A DNA stretch of 64,000 bases from Litoreibacter halocynthiae (GTDB lineage Bacteria > Pseudomonadota > Alphaproteobacteria > Rhodobacterales > Rhodobacteraceae), in NCBI RefSeq assembly GCF_004365635.1, contig NZ_SOBH01000004.1:1-64000 (forward strand), written 5' to 3'. Of the stretch, positions 48,389 through 54,078 are shown in pieces; the stretch's first letter is position 1; each line of letters starts with the position of its first letter. The translations under genes were made by a program, and so were the position numbers. Below the pieces are notes generated by a model. The model was not told the origin of the DNA and searched no databases. It worked only from the letters and a program-made list of their open reading frames with translations.

Positions 48389-49435
48389 ATGACACATCTT
48401 TGGGTTCGATCCGAAAGCCGCGACCACGAACAACGGGTCGGCGTGACGCCTGAAGGTGTCAAAGAGCTTATGAACGCAGGGATCAAAGTCACCGTTGAGA
48501 AAAGCTCCTCTCGCGCCATTGGTATTGATGGCTATAGGGCGACGGGCTGCGAAATTGCGCCCGAAGGCAGCTGGACCGACGCCCCTCGCGAAGCAATCAT
48601 TTTCGGCCTCAAAGAGCTGCCCGAAGACGGCACACCTCTGCCACACCACCACATTATGTTCGGTCACGCCTACAAGGGGCAACCCTCGGGCCGCGTGTTG
48701 CTGGACCGCTTCAAGGCGGGCGGCGGTACCCTATTCGATTTGGAGTATCTTGTGGGCGAAGACGGCCGCCGCGTTGCTGCGTTCGGATATTGGGCGGGCT
48801 ATGCGGGGGCGGCAGTCAGTCTGATGTGCTGGATTGCCCAGCAGACCGGAAGCATAGTGGAGCCGGTCGGAGTCTACGCATCATCGAAGGCAATGCAGGA
48901 AGACCTGAACGAGCGCATGGCGGCATTTGATGACAAGCGACCTTCGGCCCTGATTATCGGCGCTTTGGGCCGCGTGGGGACGGGTGGTGCCGATCTTTGC
49001 ACGTCCATGGGATTGCCAGTTACCAAATGGGACATGGCAGAGACCTCGAGCGGAGGTCCGTTCCCCGAGGTTCTGGAACACGACATTTTCCTGAACTGCA
49101 TTCTCGCGCGCCCCGGAACGCCGGTCTTCGTTCCGGCATCGGCAAAAACAGCTCCGCGCAAACTCTCGGTGATTGGTGATATCGCCTGCGACCCTGACAG
49201 CGACTTTTCCCCGATCAAAGTCTATGATCGTGTCACGACGTGGGACGCGCCCGCCCTACGGGTTCACAACGACCCCGTTCTGGATGTGACAGCCATCGAC
49301 AACTTGCCCTCAATGCTGCCCACCGAAGCTTCCGAAGATTTTTCCAGTCAGTTGTTGTCAAGTCTCCTCACCCTCGACTCGCTGGACGAAGGCGTATGGA
49401 GCCGCGCAAAGGCGACCTTTGACGAGCATCTTTAG
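48389..49435 (+). CDS. Saccharopine dehydrogenase family protein (lysine-forming type)
   Basis: A 348-residue enzyme of the alanine dehydrogenase/transhydrogenase-like fold, with the N-terminal VRSESRDHEQRVGVTP block and a Rossmann motif ALIIGALGRVGTGG (about 190-203). Similar proteins (fungal Lys1 type) interconvert saccharopine and lysine plus 2-oxoglutarate. There is no partner saccharopine reductase/LKR in the window. In this group the role may be lysine breakdown or a related imine reduction. It has AAGGGA 7 bases before the ATG and is divergent from the formate dehydrogenase gene. Confidence 0.82.
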   Translation: MTHLWVRSESRDHEQRVGVTPEGVKELMNAGIKVTVEKSSSRAIGIDGYRATGCEIAPEGSWTDAPREAIIFGLKELPEDGTPLPHHHIMFGHAYKGQPSGRVLLDRFKAGGGTLFDLEYLVGEDGRRVAAFGYWAGYAGAAVSLMCWIAQQTGSIVEPVGVYASSKAMQEDLNERMAAFDDKRPSALIIGALGRVGTGGADLCTSMGLPVTKWDMAETSSGGPFPEVLEHDIFLNCILARPGTPVFVPASAKTAPRKLSVIGDIACDPDSDFSPIKVYDRVTTWDAPALRVHNDPVLDVTAIDNLPSMLPTEASEDFSSQLLSSLLTLDSLDEGVWSRAKATFDEHL

Positions 49436-49746
49436 AGGAGATCTTCTTCTGCATCCGACAGGTCAAAGCCCATCATTTCAGAGCCGTTTTCAAGATGGTC
49501 TGCAAGATGAGGGATTCCCAAAAGGTAGTCCTCGGTTGGGCTCACCTTCTCTTGTCGCGCAGTGAGCAATGCCTCGTCCCATTCGCTTGCATCAAAGCTG
49601 CCGCGTCCGATCCATGTCAGTGCGACAAGCTCGGCCTGCTCGTCCTCGTTCAAACCATCGATGAACGCGCGAAGTTCGCCCTCTGCGCGGTCGATTTCGT
49701 GTGCAAACAAGACAACTTGCGCGACCTTGTGTAGGGAAATGTCCAT
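49432..49746 (-). CDS. DUF3775 domain protein
   Basis: A 104-residue acidic soluble protein with the DUF3775 pattern (ISLHKVAQVVLFAHEI near the start, ALTWIGRGSFDASEWDEAL in the middle). The function of the domain is unknown. The ATG at 49746 has GGAGGAG 9 bases upstream; a longer frame to 49791 is not needed. It overlaps the end of the saccharopine dehydrogenase gene by 4 bases on the opposite strand. Confidence 0.8.
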   Translation of the reverse strand: MDISLHKVAQVVLFAHEIDRAEGELRAFIDGLNEDEQAELVALTWIGRGSFDASEWDEALLTARQEKVSPTEDYLLGIPHLADHLENGSEMMGFDLSDAEEDLL

Positions 49747-49824
49747 CGACAATGCTCCTCCGTGTTGATGATCCACTGTAGGCGCCAGCATAGCCGTCTC
49801 CCATGATATGGATCAAACAGGAAC

Positions 49825-50556
49825 TCAGGAGAAAATGCGGTAATACAGCCAGTCCGGCAGGAATTGGCTGCCTCTGAATACAAGGCTGAACAGAGTCGGG
49901 AAGCTACGTTTGAAACCGCCAGACCTCATATGGTCGAACACGATCTGCGCGGCCTCTTCCGGCTCCATAATGAACGGCATGTTGAAGTCGTTCTTGTCGG
50001 TCAGTTGGGTCTTGATAAACCCCGGGTTCACTACCTGCACATCCACGCCCGTTTTGCGTAAGTCGGCATACATGCATTCGGCCAAACTCATGGTGGCCGC
50101 CTTGCTCGCTGTGTAACCGATAGAGCCGGGGAGTCCTCTAAATCCGGTCAGGCTAGACGTGATAACGATATGCCCGCAGTCCCGCCGAACCATGTTCGGA
50201 ACGACTTGCCCCAAGACACGCGCCAAACCAGTGAAATTGATATCGCACATGGCGTTTACCCGATCGGCGTCCCATTCCTTCGCGCCTTGCGGCCAATAAA
50301 CACCCGCCAGATGCACATATCCGTCGACCTCACCGACTTCCTTAGAAGCGCGGATCACGTCGTCATTTTCGGACACATCAACGGTGACGTAGGACGCCTT
50401 CGGACCGATCTCGGACACCGCTTGTTTCAGCCCATCTTCGCCACGAGCAGAGATCACCACTTCGGCTCCGGCCTGCACCAATTTATCAGCCAAAGCACGG
50501 CCCAGCCCAGCGGAGGCACCGACCAACCAATATCGTTTCCCGTTAAAATCTCTCAT
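49825..50556 (-). CDS. Short-chain dehydrogenase/reductase of the RpoE-linked operon
   Basis: A 243-residue Rossmann protein with the nucleotide motif GASAGLGRA (about 13-21), the catalytic YTASK (Y148-K152 region) and an upstream Ser. The substrate is probably lipid-like, because it follows the UfaD-like and DUF1365 genes. The ATG overlaps the stop of a 16-codon mini-ORF (ATGA). In Rhodobacter sphaeroides a comparable SDR belongs to the RpoE-dependent gene group. The exact reaction is unknown. Confidence 0.88.
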   Translation of the reverse strand: MRDFNGKRYWLVGASAGLGRALADKLVQAGAEVVISARGEDGLKQAVSEIGPKASYVTVDVSENDDVIRASKEVGEVDGYVHLAGVYWPQGAKEWDADRVNAMCDINFTGLARVLGQVVPNMVRRDCGHIVITSSLTGFRGLPGSIGYTASKAATMSLAECMYADLRKTGVDVQVVNPGFIKTQLTDKNDFNMPFIMEPEEAAQIVFDHMRSGGFKRSFPTLFSLVFRGSQFLPDWLYYRIFS

Positions 50557-50603
50557 CCGGCGGCTTTCGCTAATTCTGTTCTGTCGCTTTCAGCAGCACT
50601 CAT
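50553..50603 (-). CDS. 16-codon mini-ORF between DUF1365 gene and SDR gene
   Basis: The sequence reads MSAAESDRTELAKAAG. Its ATG overlaps the DUF1365 stop as ATGA, and its stop overlaps the SDR start as ATGA. The double coupling suggests that ribosomes pass through it to reach the SDR gene. It could be a functional small protein, a translation relay or the remnant of a lost gene. I see no ribosome-binding site that would let it be translated on its own. Confidence 0.3.
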   Translation of the reverse strand: MSAAESDRTELAKAAG

Positions 50604-51358
50604 CTCGATACCTTTTTGGATGGTGGTTCTGAATGCGCACGAAATTTTGCACCCTTCCACCACAGTTTTAGGGCCTGCCAATGTATCAGCCCCAAAACGC
50701 GGCGCGATCCTAACGGGCGGCGTAAACACGCCCTCAGAATCGACCAGTTGGTCAGCGGCGCACGCTTGCCAGTTAGGGTCGCCAGCAAGCCGTTGTTCCT
50801 GCAAGTGTAGTCGATCCAAACGCCGATCTTGTCGTCGGTGAAGTCAAATCGGAACGTGTATTCACCCGCGACCGGCTGAAACGGCGAGACGTAGAAGATC
50901 TTGCGTGCGGTCAGTCGGTCAGTCGGCAGGATAGCGCAGTGCTCATCATGGAAACAAAGGTAGCAATGCCGATCTCCATAGGTGTTCGAGACCTCGGGTA
51001 TTACTGCGCGCAGGCCACCCTCAGCATCAAAGCCAAGCCAGAAGCTCACCGGGTTGAATACATGTCCCATGACACGCGGCTGGGCGAGCAGTTCAATCCG
51101 GTCGACGACATTCATCAAACCTTCGGCCTCAAAGATCGCGCGCGCCCAAGACGCGCCCGCACCTTGATTCGGATCACCCCCGTGGTCGCTGTCGTGCAGA
51201 GATACCAGATTGGCGCTGTTGCGTGAAAACAATGCCGGAGATTTCACTTCCGAGGTAGGGTCCAACAAGACGTAGTCCACGCCATATCGGAAGGCGTTTT
51301 CAATCGCCCCTTTGCGCCCGTGAAAGGTCACGCCTGCGATATGACTAATTCCGCTCAC
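50600..51358 (-). CDS. DUF1365 protein of the RpoE-linked operon
   Basis: A 252-residue protein of the DUF1365 family, often found next to flavin amine oxidases and lipid methyltransferases. It begins ISHIAGVTFHGRKG and contains the conserved FNPVSFWLGFD and SNTYGDRHCYLC segments. It has no signal peptide and no clear catalytic motif; a link to modified fatty acids is inferred from neighbours only. The start is GTG, overlapping the UfaD-like stop (GTGA). Confidence 0.88.
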   Translation of the reverse strand: MSGISHIAGVTFHGRKGAIENAFRYGVDYVLLDPTSEVKSPALFSRNSANLVSLHDSDHGGDPNQGAGASWARAIFEAEGLMNVVDRIELLAQPRVMGHVFNPVSFWLGFDAEGGLRAVIPEVSNTYGDRHCYLCFHDEHCAILPTDRLTARKIFYVSPFQPVAGEYTFRFDFTDDKIGVWIDYTCRNNGLLATLTGKRAPLTNWSILRACLRRPLGSRRVLGLIHWQALKLWWKGAKFRAHSEPPSKKVSR

Positions 51359-52650
51359 GCGGCCTCAGACGTTTCAAGTTTCGAGGCGAATGCCCGAGCA
51401 ACATCAACCGCACTGGACAAGCCATCTTCGTGGAAGCCGTTTTTCATCCAAGCCCCGCAGAACCATGTCCGGTTTGTCCCGTTCATGGCCGAGATTGTGT
51501 CCTGCGCTTTCAAAGCGGCGACATCATAAACCGGATGATGGAATGTCTTCGTATCATAAATCAGGTCCTCACGAATCTCGCGGGTCGAGTTCAGGGTTAC
51601 AAAGAGCGGATCATCATGCGGGATCGGCTGAAGGGAGTTCATCCAGTAGGTCAGGTCAATTCTGTCTGAAGACTTGTGCTTGTCTTCGCAATATACCCAG
51701 CTGGCCCAGACCTTGCGCCGCTTCGGCATCATTGACGGGTCGGCATGTAGCACAGCCTCGTTGGGTTGGTATTTCACCGCCCCCAAGGCTGCGCGCTCCG
51801 CATGAGACGCATCAGTCAGCATGGCCAAGCTTTGATCGGCATGGGAGGCGAATACAACTTCATCAAAACGCTCAAGCACCCCTCCGACAGGCGTAATCTC
51901 GACATGGGTTTGAGCACGCTCAACCGACTTGATCGGCGTTCCCACGCGGATGCTTACGCCTTGGTTCCTCAATCGCGCTTCCAGCTTGCTGACATATTGC
52001 GTCGAGCCGCCTTTCACGGTGCGCCATTGGTGCTGGCCCGAATAGCCCAACAAGGCATGGTTTTGCATGAAGCGTATCATCGCTTGCGCGGGAAATGCCT
52101 CCATCCGTTCAATCGGCGTAGACCAAATTGCGCCAGTAAATGGCAACAGGTACTTGTCGCGGAACCATGAACCGGTGCCAAGCTGCCCCAAAAGCTCCGA
52201 AATGGAAATGTCAGGGTCATTTGCTACATCCACCGCGCGGGCGTTGAAGCGAACGATATCGCGGATCATCCGAAGGAACCGTGGGTCCATGGCATTGCGA
52301 CGTTGCGCAAAAATCGCGTCAATGCTGTGCAGACCGTATTCCAACTTCCCTCCTCCGATCGAGGCACCGAAGCTCATATTGCTTTTGACCGTTTCGACAC
52401 CGAGGTCGGCAAACAGATTTACCAGATGAGGGTAGTTGGTTTCGTTGAACACGATGAACCCAGTGTCCACAGGCTGATCGCCGCGCCTTCCGGCAATTAT
52501 GGTGCGCGCGTGGCCGCCCAAGCGGGGTTCCGCCTCGAATAATGTCACCTGATGCGATTTCGACAGCATATGTGCGGCACCCATGCCGGAAATTCCCGCC
52601 CCGATTACGGCAATTCGCTTCGGGGCTATAGTCATGGGTTCAAACGGCAT
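51355..52650 (-). CDS. UfaD-like flavin amine oxidase (NAD/FAD-binding, COG2907 type)
   Basis: A 431-residue FAD enzyme with the dinucleotide motif VIGAGISGMGAAHML (about 15-29 from the chosen start) and an amine-oxidase-like C-terminus (GLSSAVDVARAF). Its homologue in Rhodobacter sphaeroides (RSP_1091) lies beside rpoE-chrR and takes part in making unusual unsaturated and furan fatty acids in singlet-oxygen stress. I chose the ATG at 52650 (GGAG 6 bases upstream). It is first of four coupled frames and divergent from rpoE. Confidence 0.88.
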   Translation of the reverse strand: MPFEPMTIAPKRIAVIGAGISGMGAAHMLSKSHQVTLFEAEPRLGGHARTIIAGRRGDQPVDTGFIVFNETNYPHLVNLFADLGVETVKSNMSFGASIGGGKLEYGLHSIDAIFAQRRNAMDPRFLRMIRDIVRFNARAVDVANDPDISISELLGQLGTGSWFRDKYLLPFTGAIWSTPIERMEAFPAQAMIRFMQNHALLGYSGQHQWRTVKGGSTQYVSKLEARLRNQGVSIRVGTPIKSVERAQTHVEITPVGGVLERFDEVVFASHADQSLAMLTDASHAERAALGAVKYQPNEAVLHADPSMMPKRRKVWASWVYCEDKHKSSDRIDLTYWMNSLQPIPHDDPLFVTLNSTREIREDLIYDTKTFHHPVYDVAALKAQDTISAMNGTNRTWFCGAWMKNGFHEDGLSSAVDVARAFASKLETSEAA

Positions 52651-52683
52651 TTTTCGCTCCAGCACAGAAAAGTTTTTCTAAGA

Positions 52684-52713
52684 GTAGTACGTCTGCGCGC
52701 GCGCTCTGGATCA
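52684..52713 (-). promoter_or_regulatory. Possible RpoE promoter of the UfaD-like operon (weak -10)
   Basis: TGATCC on the minus strand at 52713-52708, then 18 bases, then TACTAC (52689-52684). The -35 matches the RpoE type exactly but the -10 departs from TAAGA. It is well placed for a start of transcription about 30 bases before the gene. Confidence 0.45.
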
Positions 52714-52725
52714 ATGACTGCGAAG

Positions 52726-52755
52726 TGATCCAAATTAGATCCTAGTCCGTAGAAG
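52726..52755 (+). promoter_or_regulatory. RpoE-type promoter of rpoE-chrR
   Basis: TGATCC at 52726-52731, exactly 18 bases, then TAGAAG at 52750-52755. This fits the Rhodobacter RpoE consensus (TGATCC-N18-TAAGA) and implies autoregulation. The predicted start of transcription near 52762 excludes a translation start at 52760. Confidence 0.75.
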
Positions 52756-52870
52756 GTACATGTTGACGGCAGACACAACTTTTGACGACTCTGGGCTTGT
52801 AGTGCAGCCTGTGTGCAAACCGGCGCGCCGCGAGGGTGGCGTCAGAAAGGGTCGTGAGAAGATTGTGTCC

Positions 52871-53413
52871 ATGAAGGAACAAGAAGACCTGCGATTTGTA
52901 GAATGCGTTCTGTTGATACGCGATGCTCAGGATAAGGCGGCATTCGCAGAACTGTTCAAGCATTTCGCTCCGCGCGTGAAAGGGTTCCTGATCAAATCTG
53001 GAACCGACGCTTCGATGGCGGAGGAATGCGCTCAGGACGTCATGGCTACGCTGTGGCACAAGGCGCATTTGTTCGACCCGACGCGGGCCAGCGTGAGCAC
53101 TTGGGTGTTCACCATCGCACGGAACCGGCGGATCGACATGTTGCGAAAGCAGCGGCGGTCCGAGCCGGACGAATTGACATGGGGCCCAGAGCCGGAGCCG
53201 GATGCGGCTGATGTTATGGAGCTTCAACAAGAAAGTACCCGATTGGTTCAGGCTTTAGCTGAACTGCCGGACAAACAGAGGGATTTGATTCAGAAAGCCT
53301 ATTTCGGCGATCTGTCCCATAGCGAAATCGCTGATGAGACAGGGCTGCCACTGGGAACGATCAAGTCAAGAATTAGACTGGCGCTTGAAAAGCTGCGCCA
53401 CGTAATGAAGTGA
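52871..53413 (+). CDS. rpoE: ECF sigma factor RpoE (singlet-oxygen stress type)
   Basis: Directs RNA polymerase to genes for defence against singlet oxygen; ChrR holds it inactive until stress. The 180-residue product has sigma2 (about 20-90, with the AEECAQDVMATLW and IARNRRIDMLR segments) and sigma4 (about 115-175, LPLGTIKSRIRLALEKLR). The frame is open to 52760, but the predicted promoter makes the ATG at 52871 the better start; a GTG at 52865 is close by. Its stop lies 8 bases before the chosen chrR ATG. Confidence 0.92.
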   Translation: MKEQEDLRFVECVLLIRDAQDKAAFAELFKHFAPRVKGFLIKSGTDASMAEECAQDVMATLWHKAHLFDPTRASVSTWVFTIARNRRIDMLRKQRRSEPDELTWGPEPEPDAADVMELQQESTRLVQALAELPDKQRDLIQKAYFGDLSHSEIADETGLPLGTIKSRIRLALEKLRHVMK

Positions 53414-53421
53414 AACGGACT

Positions 53422-54078
53422 ATGGAAAACATCAAACACCATATCAACGATGGTTTGTTGATCAGCTACGCAGCAGGCAGTTTATCCGAGGCGTTCAGCC
53501 TTGTGGTCGCGACGCATGTGAGCATGTGCGACGCTTGCCGCGTGCGCCTTGAAGCGTATGAAGCCGTGGGAGGCGCGATCTTAACGGACACGCCTGAAAG
53601 CGATAGCACATCTGACGTGACTGTTGATTTGAACGCAACTTTGGCTCTTATCGACGCCGGTGAGAAAGCCCCTATTCGCGTCCATCACACCAAGCCTGGA
53701 CTATTTCCATCCGCATTGCAGAGCTATGTCGGAGGGGATCTGGATTCCGTAAAATGGCGTTCGGTCGGGATGGGCGTCCGGCAAGCAATTCTACCGACAT
53801 CGAAAGATGCATCCGTGCGCTTGCTCCATATCCCTGCAGGGTGCGCCGTGCCTGACCATGGTCACCGTGGGACTGAATTGACTTTGGTTCTTCAAGGCGC
53901 CTTCCGCGACGAGTTTGATCGGTTCGGACCGGGTGATCTGGAAATTGCCACGGAAGAAGACGAACACACACCTGTGGCAGAAGCAGGTGCAGATTGTATC
54001 TGCCTTGCAGCTACCGACGCGCCGCTGAGATTCCGTGGCCTTGTGCAACGCATCGCGCAGCCGTTCTTGCGGATTTAA
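53422..54078 (+). CDS. chrR: ChrR zinc-dependent anti-sigma factor
   Basis: Binds RpoE through its N-terminal zinc domain and releases it when singlet oxygen is sensed. The 218-residue protein has H6 (and H7), H32, C36 and C39 as zinc ligands (HVSMCDAC). The C-terminal cupin domain has H146, H148, E152 and H182, all matching the pattern of Rhodobacter sphaeroides ChrR with a small offset. A GTG at 53410 overlapping the rpoE stop (GTGA) is an alternative start. Its end overlaps rmuC on the other strand by 4 bases. Confidence 0.93.
   Translation: MENIKHHINDGLLISYAAGSLSEAFSLVVATHVSMCDACRVRLEAYEAVGGAILTDTPESDSTSDVTVDLNATLALIDAGEKAPIRVHHTKPGLFPSALQSYVGGDLDSVKWRSVGMGVRQAILPTSKDASVRLLHIPAGCAVPDHGHRGTELTLVLQGAFRDEFDRFGPGDLEIATEEDEHTPVAEAGADCICLAATDAPLRFRGLVQRIAQPFLRI

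Follow-up and report, generated by a model that had tools for sequence, protein, structure and literature searches.

The stretch of Litoreibacter halocynthiae DNA analysed here (assembly GCF_004365635.1, contig NZ_SOBH01000004.1, positions 1 to 64,000, forward strand; 64,000 nucleotides, hereafter the window) contains at 49825-54078 what is very probably a singlet-oxygen response locus of a known type, namely an RpoE-ChrR system of extracytoplasmic function (ECF) sigma factor group ECF11 with a predicted pathway for 9M5-furan fatty acids. The evidence consists of the genes, their orthology, their promoters, a promoter motif before an rpoH gene, and the absence of that motif at the gene pair of a photolyase and the methyltransferase UfaM (phr-ufaM). 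As a sequence-only reading of this DNA had proposed, rpoE and chrR on the plus strand stand opposite genes for a UfaD-like flavoprotein, a DUF1365 protein and a short-chain dehydrogenase/reductase (SDR) on the minus strand, and all five genes were retrieved where it had placed them. The sigma factor, with a reading frame open from 52760 to 53413 (+), matched RpoE of Rhodobacter sphaeroides (2q1z_A; 265 bits), and its stop codon is separated from the chrR ATG by 8 bases. ChrR matched TIGR02451 (209 bits, cut-off 124.5) and shares 60% identity with the R. sphaeroides ChrR of known structure (2z2s). Indeed, the zinc ligands of the anti-sigma domain (H6, H31, C35, C38) and of the cupin domain (H141, H143, E147, H177) are all identical in the alignment of both proteins. 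C187 and C189 are likewise kept. The eight zinc-ligand positions are those named in PMC6852236.

The genes opposite rpoE-chrR correspond to known furan fatty acid genes. The UfaD homologue is 60% identical to its Cereibacter johrii counterpart, which has the same place and orientation; the DUF1365 protein is 61% identical to that of C. johrii, and the SDR 55% identical to the SDR ending the equivalent operon. C. johrii stands in for R. sphaeroides, which is not among the 80 ChrR loci compared, the ChrR proteins of these two species being 95% identical. UfaD was found opposite rpoE-chrR in 75 of the 80 loci and lies no more than 700 bases away in 74; the exceptions are five loci without a UfaD match and one with UfaD further off. 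The DUF1365 protein, with no other match to this family in the genome, belongs to the UfaO family, UfaO being the furan-forming oxygenase, a point that the sequence-only reading did not make. Its statement that the R. sphaeroides equivalents make furan fatty acids agrees with the experiments that established UfaD (RSP1091) and UfaO (RSP1090, DUF1365) as enzymes of this pathway (PMC7380195), the trans fatty acid of that work being the methylated intermediate (PMC7380195).

UfaM is not encoded in the window, as the sequence-only reading had noted when suggesting a search elsewhere and naming the lack of any ufaM-like gene as part of a refutation. Such a lack is ruled out by a UfaM ortholog of 411 amino acids that is present on another contig (C1:1318504-1319736). 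The PF02353 profile found two strong and two weak proteins in the genome. One of the strong proteins, the UfaM ortholog, is 72-74% identical to the sole strong CMAS protein of C. johrii, Luteovulum azotoformans and C. ovatus, the next-best CMAS matches in these three Cereibacter-group genomes reaching 33-35 bits. In addition, a photolyase gene is located directly upstream of ufaM in the organism and in all three of these genomes (4/4), and the corresponding R. sphaeroides genes are RSP2143 for photolyase (PMC7074977) and RSP2144 for UfaM (PMC7380195). The ufaM frame is uninterrupted by stops, and two congeners have products with 94% identity to that of the organism. The other strong CMAS protein (C1:124154) was rejected as a candidate for UfaM and for FufM; its identity to the UfaM counterpart of C. 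johrii is 36%, and its best model is that of a Brucella cyclopropane synthase (479 bits, under the model cut-off of 600). Over 292 genomes of the order, UfaO (E <= 0.001) was matched in 257 and UfaM (E <= 1e-100) in 227; both occurred in 214 genomes, UfaO only in 43, UfaM only in 13, and neither in 22 (Fisher p 3e-8, uncorrected for kinship). These sets were built from two match lists, misses that were not listed being filled by elimination, and the totals agree. Many UfaO matches of the 43 UfaO-only genomes look weaker than those of the remaining genomes and perhaps represent a second DUF1365 group with another role.

The intergenic region between rpoE and ufaD contains two divergent RpoE-type promoters of the form TGATCC-N16-CGTA, which is the consensus obtained by chromatin immunoprecipitation sequencing for the RpoE homologue of Pseudomonas syringae (PMC5507510). 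The sequence-only reading had expected an RpoE-type promoter with a TAAGA -10 element. TGATCC sites were indeed found in each direction, but their -10 regions read TAGAA and TACTA, with CGTA in common. A genome scan along the lines it proposed, with TGATCC...TAAG (N17-19), was unsuitable as a regulon marker, giving 10 matches versus 4 in a reversed control and none at the locus. The motif facing rpoE occurred with at most one mismatch in all 75 intergenic regions of the window and 74 relatives (exact in 73), and in 48/48 of a second, partly overlapping set (the window, three Cereibacter-group genomes and 44 others). Similarly, the motif facing ufaD occurred with at most one mismatch in 68 of the 75 regions (exact in 51). 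In a set of 46 genomes, it was found with at most one mismatch in 32 and with at most two in 45, a few of the two-mismatch sites being off the usual position; among 512 control windows, nearly all inside phr, 3 matched with at most one mismatch and 68 with at most two. An absence of the ufaD promoter in congeners, to which strict matching (14/48 only) had pointed, was rejected, the misses being mostly explained by TAATCC, TCATCC or a similar variant at about the usual place.

Across the 3.68-Mb genome, the exact motif occurred 11 times, compared with about 6 occurrences expected from the base composition of the window and 2 in a reversed-pattern control. Single exact matches therefore mean little; the promoter sites at the locus are not due to chance, since they are conserved across the intergenic regions of relatives. 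Three of the 11 directly precede a convincing gene start, namely those of rpoE, ufaD and an RpoH-family sigma factor gene (C1:110220), the last site being located just upstream of it at C1:110097-110122 (+). This suggests that the cascade from RpoE to RpoH seems to be kept in the organism. The remaining eight lie inside open frames of more than 150 codons with no convincing gene start behind them, an overlap that is not decisive alone, as opposite-strand frames also cover the rpoE and rpoH sites.

These data fit a scheme in which enzyme activities and ChrR turnover are taken from work on R. sphaeroides and R. palustris, and lipid production and an independent control of ufaM are inferred. ChrR would keep RpoE inactive until singlet oxygen causes its loss; the freed RpoE would then fire the two divergent promoters, one of which would remake rpoE-chrR, and would induce ufaD-ufaO-SDR plus an rpoH gene. 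UfaM would start the pathway by methylating cis-vaccenyl chains, UfaD would desaturate the 11-methyl chain on phospholipids, and UfaO would add O2-derived oxygen and close the furan; the SDR would be co-produced with UfaD and UfaO. In R. sphaeroides, UfaM converts cis-vaccenyl chains into 11Me-12t-18:1, which UfaD then desaturates, and UfaO is needed for addition of the O2-derived oxygen and furan formation (PMC7380195). As orthologs of UfaM, UfaD and UfaO are all present, the same furan chemistry is the best prediction. A search of the genome for phototrophic reaction-centre genes, whose control matched in Synechococcus only, found none, and the organism is predicted to be a non-phototrophic producer of 9M5-furan fatty acid.

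The control of phr-ufaM was compared in 64 genomes chosen by hand, namely that of the window, five congeners, three of the Cereibacter group, and 55 others, each intended to represent a different genus, drawn only from the better-scoring UfaM matches among the matches listed. In 61 of them, a photolyase gene precedes ufaM on its own strand, at a distance of 600-900 bases in three of the 61. Upstream of phr, the RpoE motif occurred with at most one mismatch in 24 of the 61 genomes, at -41 to -111; it was not found in the other 37, with best matches of 2-4 mismatches, as in the controls, and these include the organism and its five congeners, with 4 mismatches each. Directly upstream of ufaM, it was found with at most one mismatch in 1 of the 64 genomes only. 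On a quick photolyase tree of the 61 genomes with many weak forks, the trait of an RpoE promoter before phr requires at least 13 changes. An earlier study, as reported in PMC5507510, assigned phrB and cfaS to a core regulon that is conserved across 45 of 73 species, so that a lineage without RpoE control of phr-ufaM is a deviation. Such a deviation is not unheard of, since R. capsulatus is reported to lack the entire RSP1087-1091 operon (PMC7074977). An RpoE-dependent singlet-oxygen lipid response as in R. sphaeroides, predicted by the sequence-only reading, is borne out for the type of locus, but RpoE control of ufaM, which belongs to the response in R. sphaeroides, is unsupported by the motif, and RpoE induction of ufaM in this organism is doubtful.

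Another element, CTTGAG-N10-12-TATC, is found ahead of ufaM in each of the six genomes from the genus, which are related, so that these occurrences are not independent, and in 8 of the 64 genomes overall, versus 0.02 in shuffles. This suggests that ufaM has a control of its own. A loose sigma-70-type pattern was found upstream of ufaM in 20 of the 64 genomes (1.6 in shuffles), with no match in the organism's own genome. The substrate provided by UfaM may be supplied independently, with RpoE switching on its conversion. A two-input circuit is tentatively proposed for the genus, at somewhat below even chance: UfaM, expressed from its own promoter independent of RpoE, would pre-load the membrane with methylated substrate, and singlet oxygen acting through RpoE would switch on only UfaD and UfaO, the RpoE promoter at phr having been gained or lost repeatedly and the rpoE and ufaD sites being nearly always kept.

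Alternatively, ufaM could still be induced by singlet oxygen, either indirectly via an RpoE-dependent RpoH-type sigma factor or from a degenerate RpoE site that was missed, a possibility judged less likely than not. The RpoE motif before the RpoH-family gene speaks for it, as does a TTG-N18-21-C[CT]ATNT pattern upstream of ufaM in the organism and the two congeners closest to it (3 of 64 genomes; shuffles gave 0.4 on average and 2 at most). However, this pattern was written after viewing the sequence and is confined to three close relatives, its spacing borders on what RpoH tolerates, and no RpoE match ahead of ufaM in the organism has fewer than 4 mismatches. It is unlikely that the locus serves mainly ChrR turnover and singlet-oxygen signalling, with little or no furan lipid and without co-induction of UfaM. 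Such a role would agree with the phr-ufaM region without an RpoE motif and with the finding that R. sphaeroides needs RSP1090 to break down ChrR under singlet oxygen (PMC3818230), but the intact and conserved UfaM frame and the joint occurrence of UfaO and UfaM in most genomes argue against it. That UfaD, UfaO and the SDR act on another lipid, outside the furan route, is very improbable, for although a reaction of the SDR is not known and UfaO-family matches occur without UfaM, the UfaM, UfaD and UfaO orthologs are 60-74% identical to the Cereibacter-group proteins and the genome contains no second DUF1365 match.

Some findings weigh against a furan pathway under RpoE control, which nevertheless remains the preferred explanation. 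Firstly, in 43 of the 292 genomes the UfaO family is matched but no UfaM ortholog was found at E <= 1e-100, so a DUF1365 protein is not always a sign of the furan route. Secondly, the exact promoter motif is only modestly above genome expectation (11 versus about 6). Thirdly, the absence of a motif, on which the proposed control of ufaM depends, is weak evidence for the absence of control. Lastly, the locus has no counterpart of RSP1089 (MFS_2) or of RSP1088 (DUF3833), no match to either being found between ufaO and the SDR gene, so that the operon does not fully merit the word complete used by the sequence-only reading.

The ufaO stop and the SDR start are 43 bases apart, and ufaD, ufaO, a 16-codon open reading frame (ORF) and the SDR gene show successive end-to-start overlaps, resembling operon coupling (Table 1). 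In the 47 relatives with UfaO among the matches listed, out of 60 genomes, both inner genes were present in 33, MFS_2 only in 8, DUF3833 only in 3, and neither in 3. A genome search for DUF3833 gave no match and its control was equally silent, the absence hence being claimed at the locus only. Within the genus, the pair is absent from the organism and one congener (G209); its loss was probably recent, since the other four congeners keep it, and the 16-codon ORF is possibly its scar. Variation in the RSP1089-RSP1088 part of the operon has been published already (PMC3818230), and single in-frame deletions of RSP1087, RSP1088 or RSP1089 left the fatty acid profile of R. sphaeroides unchanged (PMC7380195).

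Table 1. Features of the singlet-oxygen response locus, in window positions.
Feature	Position	Strand	Basis and remarks
SDR, RSP1087 counterpart by place and family	49825..50556	-	adh_short domain
16-codon ORF between ufaO and SDR, overlapping both	50553..50603	-	Sequence and context
ufaO homologue, DUF1365	50600..51358	-	PF07103, 227 bits
ufaD homologue, flavin adenine dinucleotide (FAD) amine-oxidase-type desaturase	51355..52665	-	Amino_oxidase domain; likelier start ATG 52650
RpoE-type promoter TGATCC-N16-CGTA facing ufaD	52688..52713	-	Motif and conservation
RpoE-type promoter TGATCC-N16-CGTA facing rpoE-chrR	52726..52751	+	Motif and conservation
rpoE, ECF sigma factor	52871..53413	+	Sigma70_r2 and r4 domains; ATG 52871 preferred start, 180 codons
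chrR, zinc anti-sigma factor with cupin domain	53422..54078	+	ATG 53422; start in ORF list GTG 53410

Concerning the fold of UfaO, a confident model was obtained from a 50-sequence alignment (predicted local distance difference test 95, predicted template modelling score 0.92), which is rich in beta-strands with two C-terminal helices. The alignment contained 14 invariant residues, including H13, R15, Y133, K153, S158, P159 and Y167. Foldseek gave no match in the PDB at E <= 0.001, and a sequence search of the PDB yielded two matches (best E 0.14), no credible relative among them. A second structure search was headed by a designed beta-barrel (8uzl; Z 7.2, 129 residues aligned, root-mean-square deviation 3.9), and the nitrobindin-like 2a13 scored similarly (Z 7.1, 129 aligned, 3.9), a Z of about 7 being a level that the search tool calls common. 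This is only a hint that UfaO is a barrel resembling nitrobindin or the fatty-acid-binding proteins, and it names no cofactor.

As to the surroundings of the locus, a DUF3775 gene (49432-49791, -) comes after the SDR gene, and relatives of it were found in 20 of the 80 ChrR loci. In four loci (L083, L084, L088 and L104), roughly 300 bases separate the DUF3775 gene from rpoE, and this interval contains no match to ufaD, ufaO or the SDR; these loci are possible natural losses of the whole ufaD-ufaO-SDR block. A contig of a Pseudorhodobacter metagenome-assembled genome (L051) contained rpoE-chrR with no UfaD, UfaO or SDR match. No tRNA was found in 40000-64000 of the window.

The system, its conservation and its biochemistry have been published, and the locus is ordinary and well explained. 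The analysis leads to the prediction that an organism without a detected reaction centre makes furan fatty acids and responds to singlet oxygen. The less-known point is regulatory, as the first enzyme of the pathway seems to drop out of the sigma-E regulon repeatedly and the later enzymes mostly stay; the novelty that remains is this apparent exit of ufaM, predicted from the absence of the motif. Congeners differing in the MFS_2-DUF3833 pair, and relatives with and without the phr promoter, provide natural material on which parts of the system are needed.

Compared with R. sphaeroides RSP1087-1093, by sequence with the sister species C. johrii, the divergent arrangement of rpoE-chrR and ufaD-ufaO...SDR, with an RpoE promoter on each side, is the same. 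Similarly, ufaM is located away from the locus with a photolyase gene adjacent, as in RSP2143-2144 (phrA-ufaM), and rpoHII belongs to the RpoE regulon there (PMC3818230, PMC7074977), as the motif before the rpoH gene suggests here. In contrast to R. sphaeroides, the present system has no RSP1089 and RSP1088 counterparts, its phr-ufaM lacks an RpoE motif, and no reaction-centre gene was found. R. palustris (RPA2569-2571) has the same UfaM, UfaO and UfaD set, together with FufM (PMC7380195), but the three genes are numbered consecutively there, whereas ufaM is on another contig here; no candidate for FufM emerged, the other strong CMAS protein fitting the cyclopropane synthase model best, below its cut-off. 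The regulon of P. syringae PSPTO_1043-1042 shares the TGATCC-N16-CGTA consensus and homologues of the core genes (PMC5507510). In that species, however, the phrB, SDR, UfaD, UfaO and cfa homologues are united in one locus (PSPTO_1121-1116), under a single RpoE-type promoter and apart from the sigma factor gene (PMC5507510).

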